Shown here piece by piece: positions 878-56,653 of a DNA stretch of 64,000 nucleotides; position 1 is the stretch's first letter; each line of letters starts with the position of its first letter. Below the pieces are notes generated by a model. It saw nothing but the letters and a program-made list of their open reading frames with translations, was not told the DNA's origin and ran no database searches. The translations under genes were made by a program, and so were the position numbers. The DNA is from Maritimibacter alkaliphilus (GTDB lineage: Bacteria > Pseudomonadota > Alphaproteobacteria > Rhodobacterales > Rhodobacteraceae). The stretch is from NCBI RefSeq assembly GCF_019801605.1, contig NZ_JAHVIT010000001.1, positions 1,612,001 to 1,676,000 on the forward strand, written 5' to 3'.

Positions 878-2091
878 CAGCGGTCCACCTCGCCGAACAC
901 GATATCGAGCGTCCCGATGATCGCCGCCACGTCGGCCAGCTGGTGGCCCTTGCAAACATAGTCCATCGACTGCAGGTGCAGGTACCCCGGCGCGCGGATC
1001 TTGGCGCGGTAGGGTTTGTTGCTGCCGTCCGACTTCAGGTAGACGCCGAATTCGCCCTTGGGCGCCTCGACGGCGGCATAGACCTCGCCGGCCGGCACGT
1101 GGAAGCCTTCGGTGTAGAGCTTGAAGTGGTGGATCAGGCTCTCCATCGAGGTCTTCATGTCCGACCGTTTCGGCGGCGTCAGCTTGCCGCGGGCCAGAAC
1201 GTCGCCGGTGGCTTCGCGCAGCTTCACGATGGCCTGACGGATGATCTTGGTCGACTCCCGCATCTCGGCCATGCGGACAAGGTAGCGGTCGTAGCAATCG
1301 CCGTTCTTGCCGACGGGGATCTGGAAGTCGAACTCGTCATAGCACTCATAGGGCTGCGCGCGCCGCAGGTCCCACGCCAGGCCCGAGCCCCGGACCATAA
1401 CGCCCGAATAGCCCCAGTTCTGGATGTCTTCCTCGGAGATCACACCGATGTCGACGTTGCGCTGCTTGAAGATCCGGTTCTCCGTCAGCAGCCCGTCGAT
1501 GTCGTCCAGCCTGTTGGGGAAACGGATCGCCCATTCCTCGATATCGTCGAGCAGCTTGTCGCTGATATCCTGGTGCACCCCGCCCGGGCGGAAATAGGCC
1601 GCGTGCAGACGCGCGCCACAGGCCCGCTCGTAGAAGATCATCAGGTCTTCACGTTCCTCGAAGCCCCAGAGCGGCGGCGTCAGAGCGCCCACGTCCATGG
1701 CCTGCGTGGTGACGTTCAGCAGGTGGTTCAGCACCCGGCCGATTTCCGAGTAGAGCACGCGGATCAGCGAGGCCCGGCGCGGCACGACGGTGCCGGTCAG
1801 CTTCTCGATCGCCAAGCACCAGGCATGTTCCTGATTCATCGGCGCCACGTAGTCCAGCCGGTCGAAATACGGCAGGTTCTGGAGATAGGTCCGGCTCTCC
1901 ATCAGCTTCTCGGTGCCACGGTGCAGCAGGCCGATATGCGGATCGCAGCGTTCCACGATCTCGCCGTCCAGCTCCAGCACGAGGCGCAGCACGCCGTGCG
2001 CTGCCGGGTGCTGCGGGCCGAAGTTGATGTTGAAGTTGCGGATCTTCTGTTCGCCGGTCAGGGCGTCTTCGAAACCTTTCGAGCCGTCCAT
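877..2091 (-). CDS. nuoD: NADH-quinone oxidoreductase subunit D
   Basis: This is the 49-kDa subunit of complex I. It is homologous to the large subunit of [NiFe] hydrogenases and forms the quinone pocket with NuoB. It has 404 residues and contains the hallmark [21 protein letters not shown] near the N-terminus and the C-terminal [20 protein letters not shown] region. I start at the ATG at 2091 ([11 protein letters not shown]) because it overlaps the nuoC stop; an upstream in-frame extension of 18 codons lacks family resemblance. The hydrogenase nickel-ligand cysteines are absent, as is normal for NuoD. nuoC and nuoD are separate genes here, unlike the fused form of enterobacteria. Confidence 0.97.
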
Positions 2092-26674: not shown

Positions 26675-27889
26675 TTATCCTTCCGAAAGGCTGTCCAGCA
26701 GGCGCTCCATGAAGGCATGGCCCGCGTTGAACTGGTCGATGGTGATGAATTCGTCGGGCTGGTGGGCCTGCGCGATGTCGCCCGGCCCGCAGACCACGGC
26801 CGAGAAGCCGTGGCGCTGGAAGTAGCCCGCCTCGGTGCCGTAGCTGACCACGTGGGTGCCATTGTCGCCGGTGATCCGGCGCACGACGGCCTCTGCCTCG
26901 CCCGCGTCCTCGGGCACGAGGCCGGGACCCCCGAACTTCTTGGTCAGGGTGATGCCCGCGTCCGGGTGGATCGCCTTCATGCCGGCCTCGACCTCGGCCA
27001 CCTTGGCGCGGAAGGCGGTTTCCCACTGCTCGTGGGTGTCGCCGGGCACGATCCTGAAGGAGAGCACGAAGTGGCAGTCCTTGGCTGTGATGTTATGCGC
27101 CGTGCCGCCCTCGATGGTGCCGACATGGACGTTGGTCCAGGCGGGATCGAAGGGGGCCGCCTTGGGCCCCGGGGTGGCGGCGGCGGAGGCCGCGTTCATC
27201 TCGTTGGCCCATTCGATGATCTTGGCCGCTTCCATGATCGCGCTGACGCCCTTGTGGGACATGGAGGAATGCACCTCGTAGCCGCGCATGTGGACGTCGA
27301 AGGCCAGCCCGCCCTTGTGGCCGGTGACGGCCTGCATCATCGTCGGTTCGCCGATGATCGCGGCGGAGGCCTTGGGGAACTTGCCCGCGGCATCCTTGAT
27401 CAGCGGATCGGCCCCCAGCAGGCCCACTTCCTCGTCATAGGTCAGGGCCACCTGCAGCGGGCGCGCGATCCCGCGGTGCTGCGCCTCGACCACCGCCCAG
27501 ATGGCGAGCGCATCGAAGCTCTTCATGTCGGCGCAGCCGCGGCCGTAGTACTTGCCGTCCCGGGTCTCGACCGTGAAGGGCTCGGACGACCAGTCCTGCC
27601 CGTCCACCGGCACCACGTCGGTATGGCCCGAAAGCACGAGGCCGCCCTCCTTCATCGGCCCCGCATGGGCCCAGAGCCCGGCCTTGGGCTGATCGGGATG
27701 CAGGTGCCGGAAGGTGGGGACGCCGTTCTGCTTGAGGTAGTCCTCGACCCAGTCGATCAGCGGCAGGTTGCTGTCCCGGCTGACGGTGGGAAAAGACACG
27801 AGCTTTTCCATGATCTCGTAGGGGGTGAGCCTGTCACCGGAGGCGGCGGTCATCGGGGCATCGGGGTTGGCTGTGGATTGGGCACTCAT
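26675..27889 (-). CDS. argE: acetylornithine deacetylase-like M20 hydrolase
   Basis: This is a 404-residue M20A-type metallohydrolase. Motifs are VLSGHTDVVPVDGQDW, GRGCADMKSFDALAIWAVVEA, TYDEEVGLLGADPLIKD, GEPTMM and KGGLAFDVHMRGYEVHSSMSHKGVSA, with the closing GPGDIAQAHQPDEFITIDQF block of ArgE. Family knowledge gives N-acetylornithine deacetylation. However, the location between a second M20 hydrolase (4 bp downstream) and an ABC importer, rather than with arg genes, suggests a catabolic role on N-acyl amino acids. The start MSAQSTANPDAP is about 25 residues longer than many homologues; MEKLVSFPTV is an internal alternative with less support. Confidence 0.85.
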   Translation of the reverse strand: MSAQSTANPDAPMTAASGDRLTPYEIMEKLVSFPTVSRDSNLPLIDWVEDYLKQNGVPTFRHLHPDQPKAGLWAHAGPMKEGGLVLSGHTDVVPVDGQDWSSEPFTVETRDGKYYGRGCADMKSFDALAIWAVVEAQHRGIARPLQVALTYDEEVGLLGADPLIKDAAGKFPKASAAIIGEPTMMQAVTGHKGGLAFDVHMRGYEVHSSMSHKGVSAIMEAAKIIEWANEMNAASAAATPGPKAAPFDPAWTNVHVGTIEGGTAHNITAKDCHFVLSFRIVPGDTHEQWETAFRAKVAEVEAGMKAIHPDAGITLTKKFGGPGLVPEDAGEAEAVVRRITGDNGTHVVSYGTEAGYFQRHGFSAVVCGPGDIAQAHQPDEFITIDQFNAGHAFMERLLDSLSEG

Positions 27890-28077
27890 GGGGCCTTGGG
27901 CTTTCTTTCTGTCGGCGCGCCGGGGCGCGCAGCCACCGCGATTCCCGCAGGCGGCGTGATCCGGGGATCGTCTCAGCTTTTGCGCGAGGATCAAGAGCGG
28001 CCGGTGAAAAGGCCGCGGTTCTTGGCACGGGGCTGCGGGATGCCGTGGGGGAATGAGGCAATGGCGCGATGTTGATG

Positions 28078-28241
28078 CCTCCCCCACAAGGTCACCGCAG
28101 GGGGCGGCGCTGACCCGCGGGGTGGCGCATCAGCGCCGGTTGCCATTGGTGCGCCATTGGTCCGAGCACCAATGGCGACGGGGGGCGGGTCGGCGCTGCC
28201 CGGCCTTTCGGCCGGGCGGGTGGGAGATGGAGGGCGCAGCG
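28078..28241. repeat. structured direct repeat, copy 1
   Basis: This copy contains, in order: AAGGTCACCGCA, CCCGCGGGGTGGCGCAT, the stem GCCATTGGTGC (28142-28152) / GCACCAATGGC (28166-28176), and the stem GCCCGGCC (28198-28205) / GGCCGGGC (28210-28217) with loop TTTC. A second GCCATTGGT inside the first loop can compete for the same right arm. Confidence 0.85.
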
Positions 28242-28291
28242 CAATGGGCCGAACATGATCGCCGTTCTACTGAGACAGGGTCTCGGCCCAA

Positions 28292-28456
28292 ATCCCCCCA
28301 CCAAGGTCACCGCATAGGGCAGCGCCGGCCCGCGGGGTGGCGCATTAGCGCCGGTTGCCATTGGTGCGCCATTGGTCCGAGCACCAATGGCGAAGGGGGG
28401 CGGGTCGGCGCTGCCCGGCCTCTCGGCCGGGCGGGCGGTGGCTGGAGAGCGAAGCG
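28292..28456. repeat. structured direct repeat, copy 2
   Basis: Same order and nearly the same sequence as copy 1, about 212 bp further on: stem GCCATTGGTGC (28357-28367) / GCACCAATGGC (28381-28391), and stem GCCCGGCC (28413-28420) / GGCCGGGC (28425-28432) with loop TCTC. Differences between the copies fall mostly outside the stems. Confidence 0.85.
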
Positions 28457-28552
28457 TGACTGCCCTCTCTCGACCTCTGTGCGGAGGGTGTGTGGCAAGC
28501 AACCGGGCCACCGCACCACCGAACGCCCAAAAAACAGGCGCCCTGCCCGGCC

Positions 28553-30373
28553 TCAATACCCGCTGTCGGTCGTCAGGATGAAGTGATCCTCGCCCACCTG
28601 CTCGTAGGCCGAGGGCTGCGCGACATAGTCCATGTCGTGGATCGGCGAGGGGATCGGCTTGAACTTCAGCTCGCTGTCGGCCTTGCGGTTGTGCGGGTCG
28701 GCCACCGGAACCGCCTGCATCAGCGCCTTGGTATAGGGGTGCCGCGGGTCCTCGAAGACCGCCTGCCGCGAGCCGATCTCGACGATGCGGCCAAGGTACA
28801 TGACCCCCACCCGGTGCGAGACCCGTTCAACCACCGCCATGTCGTGGCTGATGAAAAGGAACGAGAGCCCCAGTTCGGCCTGCAACTCCATCATCAGGTT
28901 CAGCACCTGCGCCTGCACCGACACGTCGAGCGCCGAGACCGCCTCGTCCGCGACGATCAGCTTGGGGTTCAGGGCCAGGGCGCGGGCAATCGCGACCCGC
29001 TGCCGCTGACCGCCGGACAGTTCATGGGGATAACGCCGCAGGAAGCTCTTCGGCAGTTCCACCCGCTCGAAGAGCATCTCCACCCGCTCGCGCAGCTTGG
29101 CCCCCGAGGCGGTGCCGTAGTTCCGCATCGGCTCGGCCACCTGATCCATCAGGGTCATCTGGGGATTGAGCGAGGCGAACGGATCCTGGAACACCATCTG
29201 CATGTCGAGCCGCGCCTTGCGCAGCGCGCCCTGATCCAGCGCCATGATGTCGGTGCCGTCGAGGTTGATCTGCCCCGAATTCGGCTCCACCAGCCGCAGG
29301 ATCGAGCGCCCGCAGGTCGATTTCCCGCAGCCGGATTCGCCCACGAGGCTCAGCGTCTGGCCCCGCATCAGGTCGAAGGACACGTCCTCGACCGCGTGGA
29401 CCTGCGCCACGGTGCGGCGGAAGAAACCGCCCTTCACCGGGAACCGCGTGGTCAGGTTCTTGACCGAGAGCAGCACCTCGTCGGTGCCCGGGATCGGCTT
29501 GATCTCACCCTGGTCGCGGCCCAGCAGGCGCATCGGCTCGGGCGCGGCCTTGCCGGTCATCTCGCCCAGCTTGGGCACGGCGGCCAGCAGGGCCTTGGTA
29601 TAGGGGTGCTGCGGGTTTTCGAAGATCTGGGCGACGGGCCCCTCTTCGACCTTGTTGCCGCGGAACATGACCACAACGCGGTCGGCCATCTGGGCGACCA
29701 CGGCCATGTCATGGGTGATGAACATCACCGCGGTGCCGGTCTCGCGCTTCAGGCGGTTCATCAGGGCGAGGATCTCGGCCTGGATCGTCACGTCTAGCGC
29801 GGTGGTCGGCTCGTCCGCGATCAGCAGGCGTGGCTCGCAGGCAAGCGCCATGGCGATCACCACCCGCTGACGCATCCCGCCGGACAGCTCATGCGGATAC
29901 TGCTTCAGGCGGCGCTCCGGCTCGGGGATGCGGACCTGTTTGAGAAGCTCAAGCGCGCGCGCCGTGGCGGCCTCCTTGCTCAGCCCCTTGTGCAGGCGCA
30001 GCCCCTCGGTCAGCTGGCGACCCACGGTGAAGACCGGGTTCAGCGCGGTCATCGGCTCCTGGAAGATCATCCCGATCTCGTTGCCGCGGATCGTGCGCAT
30101 CAGCGACTGGTCCGCCTTGGCGAGGTCCAGTTCCTTGCCGTCCTTGCGGTCGAAGATCAGCCGCCCTCCGGCGATCTTGCCGCCGCCGAACTCCACCAGC
30201 CGCATGAGCGACAGCGAGGACACCGACTTGCCGGAGCCGGATTCGCCCACGATGCAGACGGTTTCGCCGGGATTGATGGAGAAGGACACGTCCTCGACGC
30301 CCGCGACGGGGCCGTCCTTGGTCTGAAACTCCACGCGGAGGTTCTCGATCCGGGCGATCGGCTGGTCGAGCAT
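28553..30373 (-). CDS. dipeptide/oligopeptide ABC transporter, fused dual ATPase
   Basis: This 606-residue cytoplasmic ATPase has two ABC domains in one chain (DppD-DppF-like fusion). Domain 1 has Walker A GESGSGKS, signature LSGGMRQRV and Walker [14 protein letters not shown]. Domain 2 has [17 protein letters not shown] and [13 protein letters not shown]. Each is followed by the oligopeptide-family C-terminal zone with the [16 protein letters not shown] sequence. The second Walker B reads DEAVSALD, a normal variant. The start [11 protein letters not shown] at 30373 is spaced 8 bp from AAAGGG; a GTG three codons earlier is less likely. It is divergent from the substrate-binding gene. Confidence 0.94.
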
Positions 30374-30642
30374 CTGGGGCACCCTTTCTGGTGAGAGATT
30401 GTGCAGAGGCTACAGACAGGCAAACGCTCCTGTCAAACCTGTGTGACCGCTCCCTCAGCGTCAGCTTTCAGCGAGGCTTGCAATTTGAGCGTATCCAGTT
30501 TTGCATGATCGCAACCGTGGGGCGGATCCAAGGGGATTTGCGGGAAACTATCAGATGGGGGGCGCCGTCCACGGACCAACGCCCCCTGTTGTACTTGGTG
30601 CCGGACCAGAAAGAGCCCGGACCATCCAACTAGGAGAGAGAG
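30374..30642. promoter_or_regulatory. divergent promoter region of the peptide transporter
   Basis: This 269-bp region lies between the divergent ATPase and substrate-binding genes. It is lower in GC than its surroundings around 30405-30560, as expected for promoters. GGAGAGAG precedes the substrate-binding start. I see no clear operator palindrome and name no regulator. Confidence 0.55.
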
Positions 30643-56512: not shown

Positions 56513-56538
56513 GCCCTTCATCTTTCCCCAAATACTCA
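56513..56538 (+). repeat. short family B element
   Basis: It is the head only: TCATCTTTCCCCAAATACTC followed by ACC, as in the two copies at 46755 and 46868. The GC hairpins are missing. It lies 26 bp from the 15-bp tandem array. Confidence 0.75.
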
Positions 56539-56563
56539 CCTCCCGACCGTCAGGCCGGGCGCC

Positions 56564-56653
56564 CGGTCCCTTGAAGGCCCGTCGATTGAAGGCCCGTCGC
56601 TTGAAGCACCGTCCCCTGAAGTCTGGTCCCCATAAGCCCCGTCACTTGAAGTT
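56564..56653. repeat. 15-bp tandem array (6 units) on the J-domain gene stop codon
   Basis: Six 15-bp units without indels (plus-strand type CCGTCGCTTGAAGNN). The last unit (56639-56653) contains the end of the J-domain gene. In the coding direction the units read TTC AAG TGA CGG GGC (gene end), TTC AGG GGA CGG TGC, TTC AAG CGA CGG GCC, TTC AAT CGA CGG GCC, TTC AAG GGA CCG GGC; one further unit is diverged. The stop TGA therefore replaces CGA or GGA of the other units. Confidence 0.85.

Follow-up and report, generated by a model that had tools for sequence, protein, structure and literature searches.

The window analysed here, a stretch of 64,000 nucleotides from Maritimibacter alkaliphilus, holds a duplicated, hairpin-rich block behind an ABC ATPase gene. 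This raises the question whether the block is a structured RNA, a terminator pair, a switch for neighbouring genes or a mobile repeat. It is likely a tandem pair of a REP-like dispersed intergenic palindromic repeat (F1) of the Pseudooceanicola/roseobacter family, in which a second palindrome (F2) replaces the apical hairpin of each copy; F1 would be old and non-autonomous, F2 younger and mobile. A dispersed, possibly mobile repeat had been among the readings originally offered, and it is supported by further copies and by the conserved fold.

The duplicated block and its fold

The tandem pair (28081-28456, no strand assigned) consists of two copies of 161 nt each, at 28081-28241 and 28296-28456, with 16 mismatches (90% identity) and a start-to-start spacing of 215 nt. 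The duplication described in the original prediction is thus confirmed, except for its length, which had been given as 163 bp. Both copies are located between a dapE-like Peptidase_M20 gene (26675-27889, minus strand, start codon approximate), which reads away from the repeats, and a gene for an oligopeptide ABC ATPase with two ABC_tran stretches and oligo_HPY (28553-30382, minus strand), which reads towards them. The dapE protein is 98% identical to its counterpart in P. nanhaiensis DP2Y115-3, from which the genus was assigned as Pseudooceanicola, and in P. nanhaiensis the same site carries one short element. The 120-nt cores of the two long-form F1 elements lie on the plus strand at 28101-28220 and 28316-28435 and were identified by BLAST, a sequence profile and the model R1, to which they score 49.1 and 63.4 bits, respectively. 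At 56518-56590 of the window the F1 model also matches the minus strand weakly (19.4 bits), which may reflect a decayed copy or chance.

The first stem of the original prediction, GCCATTGGTGC / GCACCAATGGC, is found at 28142-28152 / 28166-28176 in copy 1 and at 28357-28367 / 28381-28391 in copy 2, and the terminal stem GCCCGGCC / GGCCGGGC at 28198-28205 / 28210-28217 and 28413-28420 / 28425-28432. The extra GCCATTGGT is located at 28153-28161 and 28368-28376. These stem positions hold in both copies. On the other hand, folding on the plus strand revealed a larger stem that had been missed, with 17 positions around all else, pairing 28102-28118 with 28185-28201 in copy 1 and 28317-28333 with 28400-28416 in copy 2. 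The stems had been described as exactly kept between the copies, which is true of those listed, but this outer stem differs in its left arm. Also absent from the earlier description are the inner small hairpins at 28124-28137 (GGCGC-loop-GCGCC) in copy 1 and at 28339-28352 in copy 2. The terminal hairpins (28198-28217 and 28413-28432) overlap the foot of the outer stem and share their first bases with it. The competing hairpins themselves make up the F2 cassette, at 28138-28178 in copy 1, where P. nanhaiensis has a short-form apex at the same site, and at 28353-28393 in copy 2, assigned by sequence pattern. The 120-nt cores fold at z scores of -5.1 and -4.7, and none of 200 shuffles folded equally well.

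The original prediction held that each copy has two mutually exclusive folds. Both pairings are present in the sequence but they are unequal: with the cassette folded alone, the longer one is the minimum-energy fold as well as the centroid in both copies. Two left arms competing for a single right arm could suggest a terminator/antiterminator switch controlling the dapE and M20 genes. Such a switch is extremely improbable, as one pairing dominates, the stems are not followed by a U-tract, and the same cassette occurs at many unrelated places. Furthermore, when the F1 model was applied to 80 fetched dapE loci (E<=0.001; some loci incomplete), 79 gave no match and P. nanhaiensis was the sole match. 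We infer that the competing folds are F2's own anatomy and do not switch the neighbouring genes. Because of the 79 loci without a match, the distribution suggests that the window site was gained in the shared lineage of the source species and P. nanhaiensis.

That the block is a terminator pair for the ABC gene is not supported either. In addition to the lack of U-tracts after the stems, the gene has a terminator-like site of its own ahead of the repeats, a U-tract site at 28549-28535 (minus strand) that is a consensus match only and was found by a terminator scan tool but missed by a stricter scan of our own. Both terminator-like sites in 27850-28700 fall outside the elements. Across the source genome, 26 of 64 unique gene ends that face a copy have a U-tract hairpin within 120 nt; of the 116 other gene ends in the stretches around the copies, which probably include many operon-internal ones, 15 do.

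F1 as a dispersed repeat with a conserved fold

F1 is a dispersed intergenic repeat. A profile run over the stretches around BLAST and model hits in the source genome gave 50 places, comprising 49 F1 places and one with the inner cassette alone. The element exists in an 83-nt short form and a 120-nt long form, and GCCCCA(T/G)GGGGGC in the short form takes the place of the CCATTGG hairpin of the long form. The 49 places divide into 23 long (108-120 nt, the shortest truncated), 22 full short (74-86 nt) and 4 partial copies (52-54 nt). A BLAST search of the whole genome with the block gave at least 56 matches (40 of the 144 candidates scored), and a covariance model at least 73 raw hits, counting opposite-strand duplicates (150 of 10825 candidates scored); the latter adds 5 weaker places (32-58 bits) that the sequence profile did not confirm.

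The 52-54 nt forms are L024:212-264, L031:1546-1597, L038:1497-1550 and L039:1594-1646. Three of them have an 81-84 nt ortholog in P. nanhaiensis, and L039 has none among the fetched stretches; by eye, L024, L031 and L039 look like a deletion between two GCGCC repeats. At another locus (L034, around 1627-1700, minus strand) the F1 left arm (AGGGCAGCGCCGACCC and variants) is repeated as tandem partial units upstream of a short F1.

For the distribution searches a covariance model was built from 15 short copies. It matches 17 of 22 genus genomes (E<=0.001) and 194 of 394 family genomes (E<=1e-6), the source genome included in both counts. In a class sample, the family's share of which is not stated, 5 of 289 genomes matched, and four of these, the source genome among them, are from the same family. 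The further copies that a covariance search had been expected to reveal thus exist, within the source genome as well as across the family. Because the short element of a relative (L336) matches 46 roseobacter plasmid records from Leisingera, Phaeobacter, Sulfitobacter and Tritonibacter (BLAST, E<=1e-3), F1 also rides on plasmids. The long element of the window gave one 57-nt partial match to a plasmid, from Paracoccus, and no match to phages. The terminal pattern of F1 is present in 7 viral contigs, and F1 was seen in a few IMG/VR viral contigs (L338:2281-2410, L337:9056-9185, L343:6765-6894); the first of these reaches exactly the score of the copy in the congener genome G002, 95.6 bits, and may therefore be a provirus of that genome.

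Rfam gave no match above threshold in the window, the sub-threshold match with the lowest E-value scoring 19.5 bits against a required 35, and a known RNA family was dropped as the identity of F1. For annotators, F1 is a family-wide element that is missing from the Rfam version searched. Neither F1 nor F2 was found described in published titles and abstract openings, a search outside which most subscription papers lie.

Conservation of the fold was assessed in an alignment with one sequence for each of 39 genomes (a copy from the source genome and 38 from relatives), from which the further rows L302 and L334 were left out. Sixteen of the 28 predicted pairs show double, compensatory changes that keep pairing. 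Paired cells amount to 94.0%, compared with 81.5% in shuffled alignments and 38-49% with slid partners, and 121 double-change cells were observed against 39 in the shuffles. Because a structure model served to collect the rows, and the structure itself comes from this alignment, the result leans towards the fold; we judge the double changes too numerous to stem from this way of collecting rows alone. The pairs co-vary, and the fold of the dispersed repeat is conserved.

G-U cells exceed A-C cells by 77 to 5 in this alignment, whose rows were chosen by structure. When copies from the two Pseudooceanicola genomes are collected by sequence instead and one fixed T-G pair is excluded, G-U outnumbers A-C by only 37 to 21, and T-T mismatches (37) match G-U in frequency. 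Because G-U exceeds A-C, one strand may be what matters, either as RNA or as single-stranded DNA, and the evidence for this is moderate.

This leads to the question whether F1 is a functional RNA, either a transcribed 3'-end hairpin that stabilises or ends mRNAs or a multi-copy small RNA, with selection on the RNA keeping the fold. The compensatory changes and the 77 to 5 ratio, a sign that one strand is read, speak for it, and so does the position of F1 after genes. According to a simple codon-usage gene caller, the 50 places of the source genome include none in called genes, 19 between convergent genes, 27 between tandem genes (15 sense, 12 antisense), 2 between divergent genes and 2 unassigned. 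In stretches of P. nanhaiensis 45 places comprise 16 convergent, 27 tandem and 2 divergent ones, most of them orthologous to the former and hence not independent. Among 36 loci of relatives, 28 from the genus search (two being P. nanhaiensis copies) and 8 from other genera, 6 are convergent, 26 tandem (13 sense, 13 antisense), none divergent, 1 in a called gene and 3 unassigned. Convergent places thus outnumber divergent ones by 25 to 2 in the source genome and relatives together (p = 6e-6, loci treated as independent), although selection against insertion into promoters alone may explain the scarcity of divergent sites. Two Leisingera plasmids also favour an RNA, in that the matched part occupies a gap between convergent genes, at distances of 51-54 and 15 nt from them. 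In Sulfitobacter the element is likewise between convergent genes, and in Phaeobacter it lies between rfbB and a small annotated frame ahead of rfbD, overlapping the start of this small frame by 12 nt.

Other observations make an RNA role rather unlikely. The tandem loci of the source genome and relatives are 28 sense and 25 antisense (a subset of 26 versus 21 gave p = 0.56), and because its orientation to genes is unbiased, F1 fits a role in mRNA badly. A U-tract hairpin already precedes the element at 30 of 66 facing gene ends in the source genome (two ends enter the count twice), and a median of 175 nt separates stop codon and element; in relatives the distances are often shorter. The weaker 37 to 21 ratio of the sequence-collected copies and the lack of an Rfam family match count against an RNA as well.

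The reading of F1 as an old non-autonomous palindrome would imply that it spread long ago and that its single-strand fold was the target of selection or of past mobilisation. It would have survived downstream of genes, the place where insertion is least harmful, being tolerated or kept like REP elements, and its persistence could reflect a weak function of the fold or slow loss.

F1 and described palindromic repeats

In the loose sense F1 is REP-like, as it is palindromic, multi-copy, intergenic and mostly found after genes. REP and BIME elements, the RAYT-associated GTAG superfamily, are described as multi-copy short palindromes of intergenic regions, where the neighbouring genes are mostly convergent or tandem, and as also forming dimers (PMC3733652), and F1 resembles them in build, placing and paired copies. 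It differs in its length of 83-120 nt, in its 17-position outer stem with a separate terminal hairpin, and in its occurrence without RAYT. A search for RAYT (Y1_Tnp, PF01797) gave 0 of 22 genus genomes including the source genome, two of them 66% and 77% complete, and was positive in 5 of 14 controls. On inspection F1 begins with AGGGC and ends with GGGCGGGACA, and a GTAG tag beside a 6-9 bp stem is absent. A REPIN, in which a RAYT transposase moves a pair of REPs, would agree with the palindromic build, the intergenic sites and the paired copies, but is highly unlikely as the identity of the block given the missing enzyme and the missing tagged stem; REPINs and RAYT-dependent REPs were set aside on the lack of RAYT in the 22 genomes.

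The CGTC REPs are alphaproteobacterial, have no dedicated transposase and sometimes occur within genes (PMC3733652), three properties shared by the present repeats, with their occasional in-gene copies. They are described as having a CGTC tag, an 8-9 bp stem beginning with AT, a loop of 4-5 and a tail that is mostly CCA, and the main text of that paper does not name Rhodobacter, Paracoccus, Ruegeria, Roseobacter or Rhodobacterales (PMC3733652). Neither F1 nor F2 has this build, a distinction drawn from the textual description. Judged by its sequence against the text of PMC3733652, F1 fails the tested marks of both described REP superfamilies, GTAG with RAYT and CGTC. Being non-autonomous, F1 is also reminiscent of MITEs, and in some copies inverted-repeat ends CTCTCCATCCACCACG / GGTGGTGGATGGAGAG can be seen by eye. 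A target duplication, the other mark of MITEs, was not found for F1, the flanks being too diverged to show a clean empty site.

RPE-4 and RPE-6 of the Rickettsia palindromic elements are said to be located in open protein-coding frames (PMC3733652). F2, a small palindrome found in coding frames that are left open, is likened to them by description; it differs in that its frames are mainly IS transposases and that it also enters a non-coding repeat.

Palindromic repeats for which no transposase is known pose an unsolved problem in Alphaproteobacteria. F1 and its nested F2 matter here, as no enzyme that moves either repeat was found (Y1_Tnp searched, 22 genus genomes).

Mostly fixed F1 sites and an exchanged apex

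Forty stretches of the P. nanhaiensis genome (G007) around model hits, part of its 91 raw hits, were compared with the source genome (G000). Full or partial counterparts at the same P. nanhaiensis site were found for 46 of the 49 own F1 places (partial for L026 and L042), which counts against F1 being mobile today, and L009, L039 and L215 could not be placed. Conversely, the aligned G000 stretches lack a counterpart of the P. nanhaiensis copies in L254 and L260. At L254 neither a clean empty site nor a target duplication was seen, the intergenic DNA being too diverged to show one; at L260 (3074-3155, compared with L348) the alignment of the two species stops near the F1 copy.

In total 44 of the 49 places were paired and read. 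In 14 copies, at 13 sites, the source genome has the long form where P. nanhaiensis has the short one, and the opposite was never seen; both species have the long form in 4 pairs and the short form in 17. The remaining 9 pairs, being partial or ambiguous, were left out (six partial copies, the two of site L027 and the diverged L216). The two long copies of the window share one P. nanhaiensis short copy. At these 13 sites a single small insert distinguishes the otherwise orthologous repeats of two related sequenced species, so the spread of such palindromes and what keeps their fold are directly testable.

In all 14 long copies the arms resemble the orthologous short copy (0.935) more closely than the other short copies of P. 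nanhaiensis (0.893), and 16 of 17 short copies are likewise nearer to their own ortholog. The resident element thus stayed, its arms vertically inherited, while in one lineage its apical hairpin was exchanged for F2. Conversion of the whole element was rejected on the same aligned columns, a fixed-cut result to the contrary (1 of 14) being in our view a cutting artefact. Between the species the elements are 0.939 identical (median of 17 short pairs), compared with 0.77 and 0.78 for the 60-nt flanks.

The short form is probably ancestral, because the F2 pattern was not found in the congeners G019, G014 and G002, all of which carry F1. G006 carries a long F1 and G005 a similar element (L127, L128), and therefore F2 entered F1 before the species split or more than once.

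As judged from the alignments, the exchange of the apex fits both an insertion with loss of about 6 bases and a short-tract conversion. F2 could have spread by the latter, long copies having converted short ones by ectopic short-tract recombination from a few founder sites without any insertion. We regard this as a real possibility, though less likely than not. The F2 site lies between homologous arms of 38 and 42 nt, and the loop beside F2 is unlike that of the ortholog in 12 of 14 long copies. F2 borne by F1 in the source genome also mostly ends in CCAATGGC, whereas stand-alone F2 in the congeners G008, G015 and G001 mostly ends in ACAATGGC, an ending that the 28-base F2 family pattern itself favours. 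However, the arms as a whole remain orthologous in all 14 cases, and short pairs show differing loops at a similar rate (12 of 17; matching loops in 2 of 14 long versus 5 of 17 short copies, p = 0.41). In addition, F2 elsewhere occupies unrelated DNA, which argues that it can insert. The reading of F2 as the younger mobile palindrome would have it insert into existing hairpins with the loss of few target bases.

F2 itself, about 41 nt long, is a palindrome separate from F1 (GCCATTGGTGC/GCACCAATGGC plus a further GCCATTGGT) that stands where F1 otherwise has its small apical hairpin. The 28-base pattern (<=2 mismatches) was found in 87 of 394 family genomes and its reversed control in none. In the source genome 23 of 24 hits of a related F2 pattern fall in F1. 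Stand-alone F2 was found in 34 of 36 loci examined, by eye often next to G-runs or within open frames. Thirteen F2-bearing frames were picked from 11 of the 36 loci, and 8 match transposase domains, namely L355, L381, L137, L375, L382, L363 and L371 (rve, rve_3 or HTH_21) and L379 (HTH_Tnp_1). The other five comprise one DDE_Tnp_1 below the Pfam cut-off, one lectin domain and three without a match. In L363, L382 and L371 the cassette precedes the matched domain and possibly falls outside the gene. The sole domain match spanning F2 is that of L381, where rve_3 (435-512) runs across the cassette at residue 466.

A further, speculative proposal, which we consider doubtful, treats F2 as an independent mobile element, a palindrome of about 41 nt with two kinds of target, hairpin-forming DNA such as the F1 apex and IS transposase genes. 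It would swap out few bases on entry and move without a RAYT-type enzyme, a hyperparasite of repeats responsible for rewriting 13 or more F1 sites in a single Pseudooceanicola lineage.

Two minor observations concern these insertion places. In other congeners (L133, L141 and L129, around 1450-1620) the F1 apex carries, by eye, different hairpins unrelated to CCATTGG, so the apex may be a recurrent insertion site. The CCATTGG palindrome is found in IS3-type transposase frames at L381:1501-1528 and near 1501-1528 in L355, L375 and L137, with the frame open; in the latter three the flanks read by eye as transposase on both sides, by their likeness to IS3 proteins.
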